NCBI GenBank assembly: GCA_902806205.1
Contig: CADCVR010000003.1
Span: forward strand, 1-38,540
Length of the DNA stretch: 38,540 nt
Direction of reading: 5' to 3'
Origin: an uncultured Solirubrobacteraceae bacterium
GTDB taxonomy: Bacteria; Actinomycetota; Thermoleophilia; Solirubrobacterales; Solirubrobacteraceae
Part shown: piece after piece, positions 4,962 to 36,065 of the stretch
Layout of the letters: each line of letters starts with the position of its first letter
How positions within the stretch are numbered: the first letter of the stretch is position 1
Translations under genes and position numbers: made by a program
The notes under the pieces: generated by a model
Database searches by the model: none
Told to the model about the DNA's origin: nothing
Seen by the model: only the letters and a program-made list of their open reading frames with translations

Positions 4962-5867
4962 ATGATGGTCGCCGTGGCGCCGACCGTCTTCGCCCTCTTC
5001 GGCCCGACCGGTGTCGGGAAGACCGCACTCGCGATCGCGGTGGCGGACCGCCTGCGCGCGCGCGGCGAGCGACCCGTGGCGGTGTCCGCCGACGCGCTCC
5101 AGGTCTACGCGGGGCTCGAGACGCTCACGGGCGTCGCCACCCCGGAGGAGCGAGCGCGCCTGGAACACCGCCTCGTCGCCTTCCTTCCCGTCACCGAGAC
5201 GTTCTCCGCAGGGCGCTACGCGCAGCTCGCCCACCGTGAGATCGACGGTCTGGTCGCCGACGGCGCGACGCCGATCGTCGTCGGCGGCACCGGCCTGTAC
5301 CTCCGCGCGGCGCTCACCGAACTGGCGCTGCGGCCGCAACCGCCGCCCGGCCTGCGCGAGCAGATCGTCGCGCGCCTGGAGGACGAGGGCGCCGCGGCGC
5401 TCCACGCCGGGCTGGTGCAGCGGGAGCCCTGGACGGCGGAGACCGTGCGTTCCACCGACACCCACCGGCTCATCCGCACCCTGGAGCTCGAGGCGCTCGG
5501 CGCCCTCACCCCGCCCCGACCGCAGAGCCAGCTGTGGACGACCGAGACGCGCCACCCGACCCGGCTGGTCGCCTGTGTCATGGAGCGCACGGCGCTGCAC
5601 GGCGCGATCGCTGCCCGGGTCGAGCGCATGGTCGCCGACGGCGCCGCCGACCAAGTGCGCCGCGCCGACGCCGCGGGGGCCTCGCCGACCGCCCGCAAGG
5701 CCCTGGGCTTCCAAGAGCTCCTGGACGACGACCCCGGCGGGATGCTCGGCCGCACGCGCCGCTACGCCCGCCGCCAGGTGACCTGGCTGCGCAAGCTCCC
5801 CGACGTCGAGACGGTCGACCTCACCGACCGCCGGCCCGAGGACGTCGCCGCCGAGCTGCTGCCCTGA
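4962..5867 (+). CDS. miaA: tRNA dimethylallyltransferase MiaA
   Basis: MiaA transfers a dimethylallyl group from DMAPP to N6 of adenosine 37 in tRNAs reading codons that begin with U. The P-loop GPTGVGKT is at about residues 14-21. The family motifs DALQVYAGLETLTG, RLEHRLV, VGGTGLYLRAAL, RLIRTLELEALG, KALGFQELL and YARRQVTWLRK follow in order. The usual DSMQ-type motif reads DALQ here. The length of about 300 residues is normal. The start is uncertain: ATG 4962 or 4965, GTG 4974 and ATG 4911 are all in frame. CATGAT lies 7 bases before GTG 4974, close to the leaderless pattern. It stands before dapF, and hflX follows further on, a gene order recalled from other actinobacteria. Confidence 0.93.
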   Translation: MMVAVAPTVFALFGPTGVGKTALAIAVADRLRARGERPVAVSADALQVYAGLETLTGVATPEERARLEHRLVAFLPVTETFSAGRYAQLAHREIDGLVADGATPIVVGGTGLYLRAALTELALRPQPPPGLREQIVARLEDEGAAALHAGLVQREPWTAETVRSTDTHRLIRTLELEALGALTPPRPQSQLWTTETRHPTRLVACVMERTALHGAIAARVERMVADGAADQVRRADAAGASPTARKALGFQELLDDDPGGMLGRTRRYARRQVTWLRKLPDVETVDLTDRRPEDVAAELLP

Positions 5868-5979: not shown

Positions 5980-6816
5980 ATGCGCTTCGAGAAGTGGCAG
6001 GCCCTGGGCAACGACTACGTGATCGTCGAGCGCCACGGGCTGCCGTTCGCACTCACGCCGGCGCGGATCCGACGCCTCTGCGACCGCCACGCGGGGATCG
6101 GCGCCGACGGCATCCTGCAGCTGGAGGCCCCGGACGAGCCCGGATACGTCGCGCGGCTGCGAATCTTCAACGCCGACGGCTCGGAGGCCGAGCTCTCGGG
6201 CAACGGAGCGCGTGAGGCGATCCTCTACCTCCGCGCTCGCGGCTGGACGGACTCCGATCACTTCTCGATCCAGACCGTGGCGGGGGAGATCCGCCCGTCG
6301 ATCACCTCGCCGACGACCTGCACGGTCAACATGGGCCGGGCGAAGACGCGCTCGGACGCGTTCCCCGGCGGCGGCGCCGACGGGACGGGCGCGGTCGCGG
6401 GATTCCGCTTTCAGCACGTCCACGTCGGCAACCCGCAGTGTGCGATCCGCGTCGCGGACGAGGCAACGCTCGACGCACTCGACCTTCCCGCGATCGGCCC
6501 GGCGATCGAGCGCGCGGAGCTCTTCCCGCAGCGCACGAACGTGTCGTGGTGGTGCGAGCTGGCCCCCGGCGTCATCCGCGCGCGGATCTACGAGCGGGGG
6601 GTGGGGGAGACCCGGTCCTCCGGCACGGGTGCGACGGGCGCTGCGGTCGCTCACGCCCTGCGCGGCGGCGACTCGCCCGTGACCGTCCGCCTGGACGGCG
6701 GCGAGCTGATCGTCGACGTCGACGAAGCACTGCACGTCGACCTCTCGGGCTGGGCCGTCGCGGTCTACGCGGGCGAGCTCGCGCCCGGGCTGCTCGACGA
6801 GCTCGCAGTCCTGTGA
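5980..6816 (+). CDS. dapF: Diaminopimelate epimerase family protein, both catalytic Cys replaced by Ser
   Basis: DapF interconverts LL- and meso-diaminopimelate, the last step before lysine and a key step for meso-DAP peptidoglycan. The 278-residue protein has the family landmarks KWQALGNDY (Asn11), NADGSEAE, HVGNPQC (His148) and ERGVGET (Glu210). The two catalytic thiols are missing. The first site reads ELSGNGAR (Ser73, where the family has CGNG) and the second reads SSGTGA (Ser214, where the family has CGTG). Both codons (TCG at 6196, TCC at 6619) were checked in frame. The family mechanism uses two cysteines as acid and base, so activity is in doubt or the chemistry is changed. The gene sits between miaA and dapD, so its pathway role still looks selected for. 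The ATG at 5980 gives the family N-terminus and has a -10 hexamer 8 bases upstream. Confidence 0.9.
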   Translation: MRFEKWQALGNDYVIVERHGLPFALTPARIRRLCDRHAGIGADGILQLEAPDEPGYVARLRIFNADGSEAELSGNGAREAILYLRARGWTDSDHFSIQTVAGEIRPSITSPTTCTVNMGRAKTRSDAFPGGGADGTGAVAGFRFQHVHVGNPQCAIRVADEATLDALDLPAIGPAIERAELFPQRTNVSWWCELAPGVIRARIYERGVGETRSSGTGATGAAVAHALRGGDSPVTVRLDGGELIVDVDEALHVDLSGWAVAVYAGELAPGLLDELAVL

Positions 6817-6846: not shown

Positions 6847-7803
6847 ATGTGCCCCGCCGCCGACACCCCCGCCGCTCCCGGCCGCCCGGCGCACGGCGTC
6901 GGCCTGGTCACCCTCACCGCCGAGGACCGCGCCCTGGAGGCCTGGTTTCCGCAGCCCGCTCTCGGGCCGGTCCCGGACGACATCGAGCCGCTGGGTCCGG
7001 ACCTCGATCGCACGGACGCGATCCGCGGCGTCCGCATCGAGGAGCAAGTCGTCCAGGTCGACCTCGACGCACCCCCGGTCTCCGTGCCGGACGCCTACCT
7101 GCGCCTGCACCTGCTCTCCCACCGCCTCGTCGCGCCGCACGGCCTCAACCTCGAGGGCGTCTTCGGCACCCTGGTCAACGTGGCGTGGACGTCGTTGGGC
7201 CCCGTAGACCCTGCGGCCCTCGCCGAGGTGCGCCTCCGCGCCCGGGCGTCCGGCGTCGCCCTCGCCGTCACGTCGGTCGACAAGTTCCCGCGGATGACCG
7301 ACTACGTCATCCCGGACGGGGTGCGGATCGCCGACGCGGACCGCGTGCGTCTCGGCGCCCACCTCGCCGCGGGCACGACCGTGATGCACGAGGGCTTCGT
7401 GAACTTCAACGCAGGAACCCTCGGCACCTCGATGGTCGAGGGGCGGGTCTCGGCGGGCGTCGTCGTCGGCGACGGCACGGACATCGGCGGCGGCGCCTCG
7501 ATCATGGGCACGCTCTCCGGGGGAGGCACGGCGGTCATCGCCCTGGGGGAGCGGTGCCTGCTCGGCGCGAACGCGGGGCTCGGGATCTCGCTCGGCGACG
7601 ACTGCGTCGTGGAGGCGGGGTTGTACGTCACGGCAGGCACGAAGGTCACCGACCCGGACGGGGAGGTCGTCAAGGCAGGCGAGCTGAGCGGTGCCTCGAA
7701 CCTGCTCTTCCGGCGCAATTCGCAGACCGGCGCCGTGGAGGTCTCGCCGCGCGACGGCGGCTCGTGGAGCGGCCTCAACGCGGTGCTGCACGACAACGAC
7801 TGA
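6847..7803 (+). CDS. dapD: Tetrahydrodipicolinate N-succinyltransferase DapD (actinobacterial type)
   Basis: DapD transfers succinyl from succinyl-CoA to tetrahydrodipicolinate, the committed step of the succinylase branch to LL-diaminopimelate. The 318 residues match the length of the mycobacterial enzyme. The N-terminal half is alpha/beta ([22 protein letters not shown]). The C-terminal part, about 165-285, is a left-handed beta-helix built from hexapeptide repeats ([52 protein letters not shown]). The segment [14 protein letters not shown] is typical of this family's active-site region. Such enzymes work as trimers in the cytoplasm. The neighbouring convergent dapE provides the later desuccinylase step, so the succinylase route is represented here. 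Confidence 0.94.
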
Positions 7804-7860: not shown

Positions 7861-8967
7861 TCAGCCCGCCCGCCACGGCTTCGCGCAGCTCGAGCACAGG
7901 AACGCTTCGAGCGTGCGCGCGCTCCGGACGAGCGCGTCGACGCGGACGTGCTCGTCGCGACGGTGGGCGTAGGCAGGATCGCCGGGCCCGAAGTTCACCG
8001 CCGGCACGCCGGCCAGGGCGAACTCCGCCACGGGCGTCCAGGCCTGCTTGGGCGCCACGGGCAGCCCGCCCGCGGCGATCAGCTCCCGGACGAGCGGGTG
8101 GCCGACGGCCACCGCGCCGCTCGGCGCGTTGGAGTCGATCTCCAGCGTCGCGTGCGGCTGGTCGCAGAGCGCGCGGATCCGCGCCTCGGCGTCGGCGGCC
8201 GACCGACCCGGCGCGTAGCGGTAATTGACGTGGCAGGTGACGCGATCCGGGATGACGTTCTCCGCGATGCCCCCGGCGATCATCGTCACCGACGCCACCT
8301 CGGCGAACTCGAGGCCGTCGAACTGCATGCGCTCGACCGGCACGGCGTGCAGCGCCTCGACGCCCGCGGCGGCGTGGGTTATCGCGTTGTCGGCCAGCCA
8401 CGGGCGGGCGGAGTGGCCCGAGCGGCCCGTGAACGTCCACGTCGCGTTGACGTTGCCGAGGCAGCCGCCCTGCAGCGCGTTGTCCGTCGGCTCCATCACG
8501 AGTGCGAGGTCGGCGCCCGAGAGCTGGGCGTCGCGGGCCAGCAGCGGGCTGAGCGCCGAGTCGGCGATTCCGAGCTCCTCGCGCCCGAAGAAGCACAGGC
8601 TCAGGCGCTTGCCGGCGTCTCTCAGCAGCAGCCCGGTCTCGATCATCACGGCGAGCGCCGCCTTCATGTCCGTGGCGCCGAGCCCGTGAACTGCATCCGC
8701 GTCGCGGCGGCCCGGGCGGTTGCCCTGTGCCGGGACCGTGTCGAAGTGGCCGGCCAGGACGACGAGCGGACCCTCCGCGGCACCGCACTCGGCCACCACG
8801 CACGTGTCGCCGGCGTCGCGCACCGCCACGCCGCCCGAGTCGAGGACCCGGAGCACGTGGGCGGCGAGCGCCGCTTCGTCGCGTGACTCGCTCGGGACGT
8901 CGACGAGCTCGAGCGTTCGCGCCGCGAGACGCTCCGCGAGCTCCGCGTCGTCGGCGACGTTCAGCAC
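7861..8967 (-). CDS. dapE: Succinyl-diaminopimelate desuccinylase DapE (M20 peptidase family)
   Basis: DapE hydrolyses N-succinyl-LL-diaminopimelate to LL-DAP and succinate with a two-zinc site. The metal ligands and catalytic residues of the M20 family are visible: GHFDTVP (His and Asp), GATDMKAAL (bridging Asp), GREELG (Glu base and ligand), MEPTD (Glu) and a final His in the YAHRRDEHV segment. The dimerisation-domain motif SGHSARPW is present. From GTG 8967 the protein is 368 residues, close to actinobacterial homologues. This start is favoured over GTG 8994 because TAGGGT lies 7 bases before it. It converges on dapD and is divergent from the DUF429 gene. It ends CAKPWRAG after a Cys-rich FLCSSCAK tail. 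Confidence 0.93.
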   Translation of the reverse strand: MLNVADDAELAERLAARTLELVDVPSESRDEAALAAHVLRVLDSGGVAVRDAGDTCVVAECGAAEGPLVVLAGHFDTVPAQGNRPGRRDADAVHGLGATDMKAALAVMIETGLLLRDAGKRLSLCFFGREELGIADSALSPLLARDAQLSGADLALVMEPTDNALQGGCLGNVNATWTFTGRSGHSARPWLADNAITHAAAGVEALHAVPVERMQFDGLEFAEVASVTMIAGGIAENVIPDRVTCHVNYRYAPGRSAADAEARIRALCDQPHATLEIDSNAPSGAVAVGHPLVRELIAAGGLPVAPKQAWTPVAEFALAGVPAVNFGPGDPAYAHRRDEHVRVDALVRSARTLEAFLCSSCAKPWRAG

Positions 8968-8974
8968 GTTGCCG

Positions 8975-9039: not shown

Positions 9040-9834
9040 GTGCGCTACTGCGGCATCGACGTGTCGGCCCGGCCGGGCCACCAGCAGCTCGTCACCCTTC
9101 ACGAGCGTCGCACGGCCGGCGAGCCGGAGCTCGTCGCCAGCTTCTACGCCGCGGGGGACGGCGAGGCGATCGCGCGCACCGTGCTCGGCTTCGGAGGAGA
9201 GGCCGTCGTCGCCGTCGACGCTCCCGCCGCCCGGCGGCTCGACCTGCTCGCCGCGGGCTCGGCGCTGCGGACCGCGCTCGCGCTTCCCGCCGGCCGCTAC
9301 GAGCAGCATCGCGTGTGCGACGCCCTGCTCTTCCGTCGCGGTCTGCCCCTCTACCCGATTCCCGCTTCCGGTGCCCGGGCGCGGAGGGCGTGGGAGCAGT
9401 GGATCGACGAAGGCTTCGCACTTCACGCCGCACTCGGCAGCTTGAACGCGTACCGGCCGCACGAGGCCGGCGCCGTCGAGGGTCCCGTGCGGGACGGTGC
9501 GCTGCGCTTCGGCCGGGTCGCCGAGAGCTACCCCGACGCGGTCTTCGGCGCTCTCCTCGGCCACCGGCCGCCGCCGAAGCGCACGCCCTCAGGGCTGCAG
9601 CAGCGGATCGCCGCCCTGCGCCTGCGGGGCGTCGTCGACGCCGACGGCGGCCTCTGGCACCGCACGCTCGACGAGCTGGACGCGTGCGCGGTGGCCTACG
9701 CCGCCTTCACACTGGCCAACGGTGGGGGGTGGTGGACCGGTGACGCGCGCGAGGGCGTCATCGTGCTGCCCGTGGCGCCGCTGCTCGCCCGCTACGAGAC
9801 GCTCCCGCCGCCGGCGCGGCTGCCGCTGGCCTGA
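9040..9834 (+). CDS. DUF429 family protein (predicted RNase H-like fold)
   Basis: The protein is 264 residues and begins RYCGIDVSARPGHQQL. This is the DUF429 pattern in which an early Asp (GIDVS) pairs with later acidic residues (VVAVDAP near residue 65, ESYPDAVFGALLG in the middle, ELDACAVAYAAF near the C-terminus). The family is predicted to be nuclease-like with an RNase H fold, but no substrate is established. There is no signal peptide or membrane segment. It lies between dapE (divergent) and hflX (103 bases downstream, with its own promoter). The GTG start is supported by the -10 hexamer 9 bases upstream and by the family sequence right at the N-terminus. Confidence 0.8.
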   Translation: MRYCGIDVSARPGHQQLVTLHERRTAGEPELVASFYAAGDGEAIARTVLGFGGEAVVAVDAPAARRLDLLAAGSALRTALALPAGRYEQHRVCDALLFRRGLPLYPIPASGARARRAWEQWIDEGFALHAALGSLNAYRPHEAGAVEGPVRDGALRFGRVAESYPDAVFGALLGHRPPPKRTPSGLQQRIAALRLRGVVDADGGLWHRTLDELDACAVAYAAFTLANGGGWWTGDAREGVIVLPVAPLLARYETLPPPARLPLA

Positions 9835-11770: not shown

Positions 11771-12118
11771 CTAGTCGGGACGGGCGAACAGCTCGACCCG
11801 GTAGCCGTCGGGGTCGAACACCTGGACGCGGACCATGGAGTCGTCCTGCCACTCGGCCTCCTCGACTCCCGCCTGCTGCAACGCCACGCGGCGGTCGCGG
11901 ACCTCGCCGGGACCGGACAAGCTGAAGCCGAAGTGGTTCGTCCGCGGCAGGTCGGGCACCGGACCTTCGCTGAGCGTCAGCAGGGAGCCGCCCGTGTCGG
12001 CCAGGATGAGGAGGTGGTCGTCCTCGTGCACGCGCGCCGCGAACCCGAAGTGCTCGGCGTAGAAGGCGGCGGAGCGCTCGCGGTCGGCGACCGTCAGGGC
12101 TAGGTGGTCGAGGCGCAT
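11771..12118 (-). CDS. VOC family (glyoxalase/bleomycin-resistance-like) protein
   Basis: The protein is about 115 residues, one vicinal-oxygen-chelate domain. It starts MRLDHLALTVADRERSAAFY and ends VFDPDGYRVELFARPD, both classic VOC signatures. His5 and the Glu in VELFA are candidate metal ligands, and the mid-protein HFGFSL segment supplies another candidate His. Members include glyoxalases, dioxygenases and drug-binding proteins, and I cannot choose between them. The ATG overlaps the TGA stop of the VanW gene by one base (TGATG), so translation is coupled, and the MazG-like gene follows without a gap. Confidence 0.87.
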   Translation of the reverse strand: MRLDHLALTVADRERSAAFYAEHFGFAARVHEDDHLLILADTGGSLLTLSEGPVPDLPRTNHFGFSLSGPGEVRDRRVALQQAGVEEAEWQDDSMVRVQVFDPDGYRVELFARPD

Positions 12119-13797
12119 CACTCGGGGGCCGGTGTGCCGTACGTCGTCGTGAACGGCTCCCGCTTGACGTTCCCGTCGGAGTAGCGGGTGAACCGGGTGA
12201 CCACGACGGAGAAGTCGCCGCCGCCGACCGACCGGCGCGCGCCCGATACGGCGCGCACCCGGCGCCCGCCGTTGTCCCCGTAGAGCGAGACCGTGACGGA
12301 GGTCGCGTCGCTGGAGGTGCGGACGAAGACCGGGACCTTCGTGTCGTTGGTCCAGAGCAGGTCGATCGAGCCGAAGTTCAGGGTGCTCTCGCGGCCGGCG
12401 GGATAGCGCGAGATGTACAGCGAGTGCGGGGTGTGCGAGTCGATCCGCAGGCCGGCGAAGTAGGCCGCGTTGTACATCGTGGTGGAGAACTGGGAGACGC
12501 CGCCGCCCAGGGAGTCCTCCAGGCGGTTGCCCTCGGCGATGAACGGCGCCTCGACGTAGCCCTTGGCCGCACTGCGCTCCCCGGCCAGGCCGTTCAGGGA
12601 GAACTGCGCCCCGGGCGCGATGACGGTGCCGTCGACCGCCCGCGCGATCCGGCGGATGTTCGTCACGCGGGGTTGGCCGGGCTCGTAGCGCGTGGTGAAG
12701 GTCCCGATCAGCGAGTCGACGTCGAGGGCGGCGGTGCGTGAGACGGCGGGAGTGACGCGGCGGACCGGAAGGCGCGTCTCGTGGCTGCCGTCGCGGATCG
12801 CCGCCTCGATCGCCGCGGCGGCGTCTGCGCGACGCACCTCGCGGCCCGGACGACCGTTCCTGACGGTGATCGACGCCTTGCGCGGGCGCCACGACACATC
12901 ACCCTTGGCGTCGAAGACGGCGGCGGGGCCCGACGTGGAGATGCGAGCGTTGCGCGCGGGCCGGTCACGAGTGGCGGCCAGCTGGGCGACGAGCGCGTCC
13001 AGGCGCTTGTCGCCCGCGCCGAGGCGCACGCGGCGCCCACCGTCGACCGACTCGAGCGCGAGGATGCCCGCGAGCTGCGCCTGGCTGACCTCCAGGGGGT
13101 CGCCGGCGCCCGTCAGGCGCAGCGGCTCGAGCAGGTAGTCCTCCGCCTCGCGGGCGACCGCCTCCACGGCGTCGCGGCGCGCGACGGGGGCCAAGCTGAC
13201 CGGGACGGACACCGAGGCCCCACCGCGGCGGCGGATCGCCCGCTCGAGGAGCCGCGCGAGCTCGGCGCGATCGACCTTGCGGCCCGTACGCGGCGGGAGG
13301 GTGACGACCGCGAAAGGATTCGTGGTGACCTCCAGGGCGCCCGGGAAGGGCGCGCGGTCGATCTCGTCGGTCAGGTCGTCGACGATCTGCGCGAAGCGCG
13401 CCCGGTCGACGCGCGTGACGAGCTCCACGTCGCGCGTGCGCACGACGCCCCCCACGGTCGCCAGGGCGCCGCCGAGAAGGCCGTCGCGGCCCGCGTCGAG
13501 CGCCGCCCGGACGGTGGCGTCGAGATCCACGGCGTAGCCCGCGTCGGCCGGGCGGATGCGATAGGTCTTGTCGGCGGCGCGCAGGACGACCGCGACGTCG
13601 GCCCCGGCCACGGGTGCCAGGCGCCGGCGCGCCTCCTCCGCCGAAGCGCCGCCGAGCGCGACACCCGCGACACGGGTGCCCGGGAGGGCCTGGCCGTCGT
13701 AGGCGACGCGCAGGCCGAGGACCAGCGCGCTCAGGCCGAACAGGACGGTGATCAGCAGGCCGGCGACGACGAGCAGGAAGCGCGAGAGAGAGCTCAT
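12118..13797 (-). CDS. VanW family membrane-anchored envelope protein
   Basis: The 559-residue protein has an N-terminal membrane segment (about residues 6-30, LLVVAGLLITVLFG) and is predicted to face outwards. Residues about 60-340 look like two repeated regions of the kind called peptidoglycan-binding (PG_binding_4-like) in other VanW proteins. The VanW domain occupies about 355-510, with LIGTFTTRYEPGQPRV, APGAQFSLNGLAGERS, GGGVSQFSTTMYNAAYFAGL and HSLYISRYPAGRE. VanW was named from vancomycin-resistance clusters, but its reaction is not established, and no vanA/H/X genes are present, so resistance is not implied. It heads a three-gene operon. TACCTT at 13810-13815, 12 bases upstream, is a possible -10. 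Confidence 0.9.
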   Translation of the reverse strand: MSSLSRFLLVVAGLLITVLFGLSALVLGLRVAYDGQALPGTRVAGVALGGASAEEARRRLAPVAGADVAVVLRAADKTYRIRPADAGYAVDLDATVRAALDAGRDGLLGGALATVGGVVRTRDVELVTRVDRARFAQIVDDLTDEIDRAPFPGALEVTTNPFAVVTLPPRTGRKVDRAELARLLERAIRRRGGASVSVPVSLAPVARRDAVEAVAREAEDYLLEPLRLTGAGDPLEVSQAQLAGILALESVDGGRRVRLGAGDKRLDALVAQLAATRDRPARNARISTSGPAAVFDAKGDVSWRPRKASITVRNGRPGREVRRADAAAAIEAAIRDGSHETRLPVRRVTPAVSRTAALDVDSLIGTFTTRYEPGQPRVTNIRRIARAVDGTVIAPGAQFSLNGLAGERSAAKGYVEAPFIAEGNRLEDSLGGGVSQFSTTMYNAAYFAGLRIDSHTPHSLYISRYPAGRESTLNFGSIDLLWTNDTKVPVFVRTSSDATSVTVSLYGDNGGRRVRAVSGARRSVGGGDFSVVVTRFTRYSDGNVKREPFTTTYGTPAPE

Positions 13798-19284: not shown

Positions 19285-20634
19285 TCAGAACGAGCTTCCC
19301 GCGACCCCGCGCCGCACGAGCTCCTCGCGCAGGCCGAGCATCGCCGTGTAGGTCGGCAGCGCGAACAGGCGCCCGCCGGTGGGCGCGCCGCCGAGCGCCC
19401 GGTCCAGCGCCGCTCCGAGCTCGGGCTCGACCTCGATGGCGGCCTCGGGCACTCCGGCGTACTTCAGCCGCAGGGCCATCTCGGGCGCCCGGCTGCCTGA
19501 GCAGACCGCACGGCGGAGGCTCGGGGCGAGCGTCTCGAAGTCGGCGTCCCAGATCCACGAGACGTCGCGGCCGTCGGCGATCTGGTCGTTGAGGATCGCC
19601 AGCAGGTCGTGCCGGCCGGCTTCCAGGGCCAGCGTGCGCAGCACCTCGTTCGCCCCGGCGGGGTTCTTGACGAGCATGATCGAGACGTCGTGACCCTCCA
19701 CCGCGACGGTCTCCGCCCGGCCGAACGCGGGGGAGACGGCCCCCAGCCCGGCGACCACGTCGGCCACCGGCGCGCCGAGGGCGAGCGCGAGCGCCGCGGC
19801 GCCCAGCGCGTTGTAGACGTTGTAGAGGCCGGGCAGCGGCACGGCGACCGTGACGTCGCCCGCCACGGTCCGCAGGGTGAAGCGGGCACCGCGCACGCCG
19901 TCGAGGGTGACGTCGTGGGCGGTGACCGTCGGCCGCGGCCGTCGCGTGTCGCAGTTCGGGCAGTGGTAGTGGCCGAGATGACCCAGGAAGACGGCGTCGT
20001 AGACGAGGGGCGCGCCGCAGCGCCGGCAGTGCGTCGAGTCCGAGGCGTGCTGGAGGCCCGGGGTGGCGAGCGTGACGTCTTCCACACCGAAGAAGGTGGC
20101 GTCGGCGGGCCGCTCGCGGCCCAGATCGGCGACGAGCGGGTCGTCCGCGTTGAGCACGAGCGCCCGCGCGTGGCCCGCGGCGACGACCTGTGCCCAGCGA
20201 TCGGCGATCGCCTCGAGCTCGCCGTAGCGGTCGAGCTGGTCACGGAAGAGGTTCGCGAGCAGCAGGGCCGAAGGCTCGAGCTCCTGCACGATGGGTCCGA
20301 GCCAGAACTCGTCGACCTCGAAGAGGCCCGTGTCGCCCGCGTCGCGCAAGAGTGCGCCGGCTACGCCACCGGCCATGTTCGCCCCCGCGCGGTTGGAGAC
20401 CAGGCGCGCCCCACCGCGCTCGAGGATCGCCGCGACCATCGCCGCCGTCGTCGTCTTCCCGTTGGTCGCGGAGATCACCGCGGAGCGCTCAAGCCCGCGG
20501 GAGAGCGTCCCGATCGCGTGCGGGTCCAGGCGCAACAGGACTTTGCCGGGCAGGCTCGTGCCGCCGCGGCCGCTGCGCCGCGACGCCGCTCCGGCCAGTC
20601 GCGCGGCCGCGCCCTTCCACCCGGTGCCCCTCAT
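19285..20634 (-). CDS. murT: Lipid II isoglutaminyl synthase subunit MurT (Mur ligase family)
   Basis: MurT activates the D-glutamate carboxylate of lipid II with ATP and uses ammonia from GatD to make D-isoglutamine. The 449 residues include the ATP loop SATNGKTTTAAM, LFEVDEFWLG, the NLFRDQLDRYGE segment and a zinc ribbon of the form CxxC-x20-CxxC (CRRCGAPL to HCPNC). The C-terminal domain (DUF1727) holds LNDQIADGRDVSWIWDADFE; from memory, an Asp in this domain completes the GatD active site. The start ATG overlaps the stop of the lipid kinase gene (ATGA). GatD is two genes downstream, with a methyltransferase between them. Confidence 0.93.
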   Translation of the reverse strand: MRGTGWKGAAARLAGAASRRSGRGGTSLPGKVLLRLDPHAIGTLSRGLERSAVISATNGKTTTAAMVAAILERGGARLVSNRAGANMAGGVAGALLRDAGDTGLFEVDEFWLGPIVQELEPSALLLANLFRDQLDRYGELEAIADRWAQVVAAGHARALVLNADDPLVADLGRERPADATFFGVEDVTLATPGLQHASDSTHCRRCGAPLVYDAVFLGHLGHYHCPNCDTRRPRPTVTAHDVTLDGVRGARFTLRTVAGDVTVAVPLPGLYNVYNALGAAALALALGAPVADVVAGLGAVSPAFGRAETVAVEGHDVSIMLVKNPAGANEVLRTLALEAGRHDLLAILNDQIADGRDVSWIWDADFETLAPSLRRAVCSGSRAPEMALRLKYAGVPEAAIEVEPELGAALDRALGGAPTGGRLFALPTYTAMLGLREELVRRGVAGSSF

Positions 20635-34004: not shown

Positions 34005-36065
34005 ATGCTCGTCGCCGACCTGACCAGCGGCACCGGTCGTGCTCGCCGCCGCATCACCCTGGCGGCCCGCGCGTTTCTCGTCGCGTGCGTCTGGATCAGC
34101 GTGAATGGCGCTACCGCGGCGGCCGATCAGGCCACCGATCCGCCATCGCCGGCGGCGGGTCTGCTGGACGCGGGATGGTTTCACACCTGCGCGGTGCTCA
34201 GCGCCGGCAGTGTCCGTTGCTGGGGTTCGGGGGCCGAGGGCCAGTTGGGCTACGGCAGCACGGACAGTGTCGGCGACAACGAGATCCCGGGCTCGGCCGG
34301 GCCGGTGAACCTCGGCGTCGGGCGCACCGCCCAGGCGCTCGCCGCCGGCGACTTCCACAGCTGTGCGCTGCTCGACGACGCCAGCGTGCGCTGCTGGGGC
34401 TTCGGCGGCGACGGCCGGCTCGGCTACGCCAGCACCGCCAACGTCCGCGATCCTGGCGCCGCGGGACCCGTCGACCTGGGGGGGCCGGCGAAGGCGATCA
34501 CCGCCGACGCCGCCCACACCTGCGCGCTCCTGCTCGACGGCAGCGTGCGCTGCTGGGGCTACGGCGGGGAAGGGTTTCCCAGGGACGGGCGACTGGGCTA
34601 CGGCAACACCAAGAACGTCGGCGACAACGAGACCCCCGGCTCGGCCGGGCCGGTGAAGCTCGGCGAGGGGCGTACTGCCACCGCGATCAGCGCGGGCCGG
34701 GAGCACAGCTGCGCGCTGCTCGACGACGGCACGGTCAAGTGCTGGGGTCGCAACTTCGACGGCCAGCTGGGCTACGGCAGCGTGACGAGCCTCGGTGACG
34801 ATCCGGCCACGACGCCGGACATGCTCGGTCGGGTGGACCTTGGTCCGGGGCGCACGGCCACGGCCATCAGCGCCGGGGGCACGCATACCTGCGCCCTGCT
34901 CGACGAGGGCAACGTACGCTGCTGGGGGGCCGCCGGCTTCGGCCAGCTCGGCTACGCCAACACCGACCGGATCGGTGACGACGAGACTCCCGCCAGGGCC
35001 GGTCCGGTGGACGTCGGCGCCGGGCGATTCGTCACGGCGATCAGCGCCGGTGACATGCACACCTGCGCGCGACTGGACGACGGCACCGTGCGCTGCTGGG
35101 GCGCAGGCAGCGTCGGTCGGCTGGGATATCCGGCTGCGAACCGAGGAGATGAGCATGACAACGTCGGCGACGACGAGACTCCCGCTGCCGTCGGCCCCGT
35201 GGATGTCGGCTCGGGGCGCACCGCCACGGCGATCAGCGCCGGCAGGAACCACACCTGCGTGCGGCTCGACGACGCCGGCGTGCGCTGCTGGGGCAGAGGC
35301 GCGTTCGGCCGGCTCGGCTACTGCAGCGAGAACACCGTCGGCGACGACGAGTCCCCTGCCGCGGCGGGCCCCGTCGATCTCGGAGAGCCCGGCGCGCGCG
35401 TGGCCGGCTGCCCTCGCCCGGCCGACGCCACCGGCACCCCGGGTGCCGGCAACGCCCAAAGCGCTACACCCGCCAAGCCAGCCACGCCGGCCGCGTCAGA
35501 CGGTTCCCCGGCCGTCGTTGCCGGAGCGACCCCGCTTGCGGCGTCAGAAGCGGCCCGGGCACGCGACTTCCGCCGCTGCGTCGCTGCGGTGGCGAGCCAC
35601 TCCGAGGGCGAGAGGCGCCTCGCACGCCGCGGTTCGGCGCGTGAACGCGCGCGGGCCAAGGCTCATCGAAGCCGTCATGCAGCCGCCGGGCGCCGACGCT
35701 GTCTCCGCCTGTTCGCACGCACCCCCGGACGCGTCACCGGACTGCGCGCGCGCGCAGTCGCTCCCACCAGGATCCGACTCGACTTCAAGACGCCGGGGAC
35801 CAGCGGACCTCAGCCGCCTCCCGTGCGCAGCTACCTGATCAAGCAGTCCCTCCGTCCCATCCGCGACTCCAAGGACTTCGCGCGCGCGCAGACGCTCTGC
35901 AAGGGAAGCTGTCGGTTCAGCGTCCCGGAGGTCGGTGATCGCGTGTCGCTCACCGTCAGCGACCTGCGGCCCCGCACCACCTACTTCTACGCCGTCGCCG
36001 CCCGCGACCACATCTCGGGTCACCGCGGCCCGCGCTCACGGTGGGTCAAGGTCACGACCGGCTGA
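34005..36065 (+). CDS. Secreted RCC1-type seven-bladed propeller protein with C-terminal FnIII domain
   Basis: The 686-residue protein has an N-terminal signal region ([27 protein letters not shown]). Seven RCC1-like repeats of about 55-65 residues run from about residue 55 to 470. Each carries a pattern like AGxxHTCALLDDGxVRCWGxGxxGxLGY and the NVGDxETP segment. Each repeat has one Cys before and one after the DDG turn, which could form a disulphide in every blade. An Ala/Arg-rich linker (about 480-590) leads to a fibronectin type III domain ([15 protein letters not shown] to [15 protein letters not shown]). It is an exported binding protein of unknown ligand. The FnIII end resembles the partial gene at the right edge of the window. 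Confidence 0.9.

Follow-up and report, generated by a model that had tools for sequence, protein, structure and literature searches.

The 38,540-nucleotide contig CADCVR010000003.1 of an uncultured Solirubrobacteraceae bacterium (the window) encodes one member of the diaminopimelate (DAP) epimerase (EC 5.1.1.7) family, DapF, in which both catalytic Cys residues are replaced by Ser. Judged from sequence comparisons, this protein is likely to be the working DAP epimerase of the cell, with a Ser/Ser acid–base pair. The dapF gene (positions 5980–6816, plus strand) encodes 278 amino acids from an ATG start codon. The protein scores 196.8 bits against TIGR00652, the NCBI equivalog model for DapF (cut-off of 114.65), and PF01678, the sole family found in a Pfam scan, matches in both halves (136.1 bits versus a cut-off of 34.7). 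The first catalytic position is Ser73 (codon TCG, 6196–6198, plus strand), found in the sequence EAELSGNGAR, and the second is Ser214 (codon TCC, 6619–6621, plus strand), found in the sequence ERGVGETRSSGTGA. In an alignment with solved DapF proteins, which carry the motifs CGNG and CGTG, these residues correspond to Cys73 and Cys217 of Haemophilus influenzae DapF, and neither acid–base position of the window protein is thus a Cys. The original prediction, a DapF with both catalytic Cys residues changed to Ser, is correct and its coordinates are exact, and the reading frame is full length. Its further statement that all other DapF landmarks are kept was nearly right, but two residues depart: Gln153 (CAG, 6436–6438, plus strand) stands in place of the His of the GNPH motif, and Ser189 (TCG, 6544–6546, plus strand) in place of the Glu of the RTNVE motif.

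The substrate site retains the known binding residues of a DAP epimerase. Residues Asn11, Asn64, Asn75, Asn151, Asn187, Glu205, Arg206, and Thr216 (Thr or Ser at 216) belong to an essentially invariant DAP-binding set and are the equivalents of Asn15, Asn74, Asn85, Asn159, Asn194, Glu212, Arg213, and Thr223 of Corynebacterium glutamicum DapF, the Ala mutants of which are dead (PMC5296763). A changed substrate, one of the options first put forward for this gene, is disfavored by the retention of all of these predicted contacts. An AlphaFold model of the protein (predicted local distance difference test score, pLDDT, of 95.6) has the two-domain DapF fold, and its best PDB matches are DapF proteins and O-ureidoserine racemase (Z of 28–36). 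In this model, Ser73 and Ser214 each mark the N-terminal end of a central helix (residues 74–86 and 215–227), the place described for the catalytic Cys residues (PMC11602996). The window protein shares its family, fold (VIA Z of about 33, root-mean-square deviation of 2.0–2.6), DAP-binding residues, and single copy with the canonical enzymes from H. influenzae (PDB IDs: 1bwz, 1gqz, 2gke), C. glutamicum (5m47), and Escherichia coli (4ijz). In contrast, the canonical enzymes have Cys/Cys, the GNPH His, and the RTNVE Glu where the window protein has Ser/Ser, Gln153, and Ser189. The top VIA fold match is the DapF-like O-ureidoserine racemase (7vdy, Z of 36.0), tied with a DapF at 35.0. That enzyme acts on O-ureidoserine, whereas the window gene adjoins dapD and dapE and its product retains the DAP-binding set.

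The Ser/Ser pair is not particular to one genome. DapF was found in 280 of the 299 genomes searched from the class Thermoleophilia, nearly always as a single copy. The compared families carry group codes (f1–f80), and names are tied solely to the order of the window, which was assigned as Solirubrobacterales, an order of soil bacteria, through named relatives (Patulibacter, Conexibacter, Paraconexibacter, and Solirubrobacter, plus many metagenome-assembled genomes). All 100 distinct DapF sequences of this order with both sites readable are Ser/Ser, including those of cultured strains and complete chromosomes such as Patulibacter minatonensis, Conexibacter sp. DBS9H8, and Paraconexibacter antarcticus. 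The alignment of relatives that had been proposed as a check therefore shows the trait to be clade-wide, and the case of a lone degenerate copy among Cys-type relatives is ruled out. In the same class, Ser/Ser is also found in families f7 and f11, which keep the GNPH His, and Cys/Cys is found in f5, f6, f8, f9, f10, and f12. Outside the class, Ser/Ser occurs in f46 and f49, with one DapF per genome. A scan of 396 Actinomycetota genomes for the first-site motif gave Ser in 29 and Cys in 203, both of which are lower bounds since the scan reads only TCN codons within a fixed flanking motif, and in none of the 396 genomes did the Ser and Cys forms of this motif occur together. The hits with Ser outside the class divide into Ser/Ser and Ser/Cys proteins. 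The open-access literature searched contained no description of a natural DapF of the Ser type.

Comparison of the Ser/Ser groups separates the two serines from the changes that surround them. Apart from the variable Leu-rich position 212, positions 73 and 214 are the sole departures from the Cys type in the catalytic motifs that are common to all four Ser/Ser groups. Near the active site, the order has its own changes, His153 to Gln, Glu189 to Ser, Gly8 to Ala, and Trp204 to Phe. Gln153 is present in 100% of its sequences, with His at this position in 100% of the Cys-type and f11 sequences and in every other group compared, and the order-specific Ser189 is present in 99%. These accessory changes vary by Ser/Ser group, and f7, f11, f46, and f49 all retain the GNPH His. 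The motif comparison revealed no replacement catalytic residue common to all of the Ser/Ser groups.

Some variant forms of DapF were also observed. In five actinobacterial families outside the class (f75, f56, f26, f63, and f19), DapF is of a Ser/Cys type (L203–L207, L212, L216–L223) and is the sole DapF except in genome G447; no earlier description of these proteins was found in the literature searched. G447 encodes two DapF-like proteins (L203 and L224), of which one is Ser/Cys with normal motifs; in the other, the second site reads SSAAG and GNPH is changed to GTPH. The latter may be a paralogue that has degenerated or taken on a new purpose, or it may stem from assembly contamination. A sub-group of f7 (L167–L173) has shortened Ser/Ser proteins of about 225–235 amino acids with a second motif of SGTS instead of SGTG. 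Finally, a record titled "Chlamydiae bacterium" (L123) has a typical Solirubrobacterales miaA-dapF-hflX region with a DapF identity of 60%, and either its title is probably wrong or its bin is mixed.

The history of the substitution was examined in a DapF tree from which both catalytic columns had been excluded. Within the class, the Ser/Ser sequences do not form one clade: three changes of the label are required in the bootstrap trees (5–95% range of 3–3), and a single-change history is found in 0% of them. A single origin of Ser/Ser in the class is unsupported, since the Cys/Cys family f10 groups with the Ser/Ser family f11 (support of 96/89) and the two together join the order at 98/95. The change to Ser/Ser therefore either recurred or reverted, two histories that are indistinguishable here because the deep branches are weak and the deep root is not settled. 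A wider quick tree has six changes across all states. Within the order, the Ser codons have switched between the TCN and AGY classes at least three times at the first site and at least eight times at the second, and no residue other than Ser is seen at either site despite these switches. The ratio of nonsynonymous to synonymous substitution rates (dN/dS) is 0.08–0.34 in close pairs of order DapF sequences. Based on the codon switches and the low dN/dS, the two serines are under selection. The gene has neither the broken frame nor the relaxed selection of a pseudogene, and the early argument against random decay is strongly supported by the order-wide Ser/Ser state, the purifying selection, and the recurrence of Ser/Ser in other lineages.

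Both lysine and the cell wall are built from meso-DAP. The DNPR motif in MurE is DAP-specific, and it is present in the MurE of the window's genome. LysA is above its cut-off in 59 of 61 genomes of the order. Neither these 61 genomes nor 34 genomes of Ser-type lineages elsewhere contain a DAP dehydrogenase above the cut-off. Because only short sub-threshold fragments were found, a by-pass through this enzyme was rejected. In the chemotaxonomic literature, cell-wall meso-DAP is given as diagnostic for all Solirubrobacterales (PMC3035278) and has been found in Solirubrobacter (PMC10722151). The presence of LysA and a DNPR-type MurE, the lack of a DAP dehydrogenase, and the reported meso-DAP together imply that the pathway needs an epimerase. 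The genome of the window has a single DapF, and no second, Cys-type DapF is found in it. The initial suggestion of a strain that uses LL-DAP and obtains meso-DAP from another source is disfavored on these grounds. An extra racemase of the pyridoxal phosphate type (PF01168) or the Asp/Glu type (PF01177) was considered as a substitute and rejected, since copy number does not separate Ser/Ser from Cys/Cys genomes. Some Ser/Ser genomes (G124, G151, G003, and G009) have as few as one Ala_racemase_N protein, and Asp/Glu racemases in Ser/Ser genomes often number one or zero, not more than in Cys/Cys genomes. As a separate observation, genomes G098, G124, and G007 have no match to PF01177 (MurI-type Asp/Glu racemase) and have MurE; a D-amino acid transaminase is one possible source of D-glutamate.

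The sole DapF of the order thus probably works by serine-based chemistry. Of the three options first raised, a serine-based epimerase is the best supported by the sequence comparisons, with the catalysis itself standing as a prediction; likewise, direct proton transfer by the two serines is a prediction. In the proposed mechanism, the conserved Asn, Glu, Arg, and Gly-Asn/Gly-Thr contacts would hold LL-DAP, supplied by DapD and DapE, in the interdomain cleft of DapF. The two-Cys acid–base pair would be replaced by Ser73 and Ser214, at the helix N-termini and on opposite faces of the substrate α-carbon. One Ser, either as an alkoxide or through a relay by the helix dipole and amide network, would take the α-proton, and the other would give a proton back from the opposite side to yield meso-DAP for MurE and LysA. 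We lean toward the view that this is a full two-base inversion of the α-proton by two serines and no Cys, that it provides the sole DAP epimerase in several families, and that it was reached repeatedly, perhaps via Ser/Cys forms. One plausible benefit would be insensitivity to oxidation of the type seen in C. glutamicum DapF, which is turned off by a disulfide bond between its two catalytic Cys residues (PMC5296763). Unlike in the canonical Cys/Cys enzymes, this disulfide bond is impossible in the window protein.

Partial precedents for such chemistry are found in other racemases. In the proline racemase superfamily, a natural Ser/Cys 4-hydroxyproline 2-epimerase is proven to perform two-base epimerization, and a Ser/Thr form is the trans-3-hydroxyproline dehydratase (PMC4113996). 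These enzymes share with the window protein an overall fold class and a catalytic Ser that naturally stands where a Cys is expected, but differ in family, substrate, and motifs, and the known epimerases among them keep at least one Cys. The window protein lies outside their sequence family, with 14–18% identity to solved 4-hydroxyproline epimerases and a match to PF01678 only. Similarly, EcL-DER, an Asp/Glu racemase with Thr/Cys (PMC8142540), is a natural cofactor-independent racemase in which a hydroxyl residue replaces one Cys. In contrast to the window protein, it belongs to the unrelated Asp/Glu racemase family, keeps one Cys, and is reported to be one-directional. The same substitution has been made at single sites in the laboratory, in H. 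influenzae DapF (C73S, 2q9h; C217S, 2q9j), HisR (C67S and C209S), and PddB (C101S and C233S). These mutants are Cys-tuned enzymes, whereas the serines of the window protein occur at both sites, are natural, and are under selection.

Several points weigh against a working Ser/Ser epimerase. HisR, PddB, and HyPRE are left with almost no activity when a single Cys is changed to Ser, and the corresponding mutant of Mycobacterium tuberculosis DapF is nearly inactive, as cited in the PddB paper. On pKa grounds, Ser is a poorer acid–base residue. The GNPH His, which is invariant elsewhere, is also lost in the order. In addition, no assayed Ser/Ser epimerase was found in the open-access literature searched. 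The near-complete loss of activity in mutants of known relatives lends some weight to an alternative that we consider unlikely, in which an unrelated, hidden enzyme epimerizes LL-DAP and the Ser/Ser DapF keeps its substrate site for another DAP-related role, such as binding, regulation, or a different reaction. The search for substitutes covered known racemase families, which leaves room for an enzyme of another kind. The lack of a DAP dehydrogenase and of any enrichment of the known racemase families in Ser/Ser relative to Cys/Cys genomes speaks against this alternative. A replacement would also be needed in every Ser-type lineage, each of which retains all DAP-binding residues and exactly Ser at both sites, and the Ser/Cys types form a graded series.

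In a second alternative, DAP epimerization is carried out by this protein, but the serines only position the substrate or a water molecule, and another residue or an activated water transfers the proton. The poor pKa match of a Ser acid–base pair would be explained in this way, and the four near-site changes specific to the order could mark a reorganized site. These accessory changes differ among the Ser/Ser groups, however, which have only the two serines in common and present no new candidate base that they share, and we regard this alternative as improbable. A degenerate gene or a sequencing or assembly error in one genome, for which no support was found, has practically no standing given the full-length frame, the 100 distinct Ser/Ser homologues, and dN/dS values well under 1, and is refuted by the relatives of the window.

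These observations bear on an enzyme that serves as the textbook example of racemization by two cysteines and is also a target for antibacterial agents. Its Cys residues are regarded as essential and are attacked by inhibitors such as aziridino-DAP; here, entire families of bacteria live with a DapF in which both are missing. A Ser/Ser epimerase would mean that Ser is capable of such chemistry once a site has evolved for it, and the removal of unactivated α-protons would then be seen in a new way; otherwise, the Ser-type organisms would hide an unknown DAP epimerase. The natural series of Cys/Cys, Ser/Cys, and Ser/Ser enzymes can serve to dissect the contribution of each base. As a caution, a missing Cys is no ground for calling a racemase dead.

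In the window, dapF lies between miaA and dapD. Upstream, miaA (4965–5867, plus strand, approximate start) encodes a tRNA dimethylallyltransferase that scores 139.2 bits against TIGR00174, slightly below the cut-off of 148.65. Downstream, dapD (6847–7803, plus strand) encodes a tetrahydrodipicolinate N-succinyltransferase (TIGR03535, 453.7 bits) and dapE (7861–8970, minus strand, approximate start) a succinyl-diaminopimelate desuccinylase (TIGR01900, 349.8 bits). Both scores are above the curated cut-offs, in agreement with the initial description of intact dapD and dapE genes beside dapF. Among 46 named relatives, nearly all have miaA ahead of dapF, and dapD and dapE are frequently elsewhere or inverted. 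Because of this variation, the conserved arrangement is the pairing of miaA with dapF and not a dap operon. A gene for a DUF429 protein (9040–9834, plus strand) lies between dapE and hflX, and two of the named relatives (L095 and L098) likewise have a similar gene after dapE. Farther along, the window encodes a VanW-like protein with a putative peptidoglycan-binding domain (12118–13797, minus strand) and a MurT-like ligase with MurT_C and Mur_ligase_M domains (19285–20634, minus strand), the latter of which suggests glutamate amidation of lipid II by MurT/GatD. Finally, a protein rich in RCC1 repeats, with seven stretches matching RCC1_2, is encoded at 34005–36065 (plus strand).
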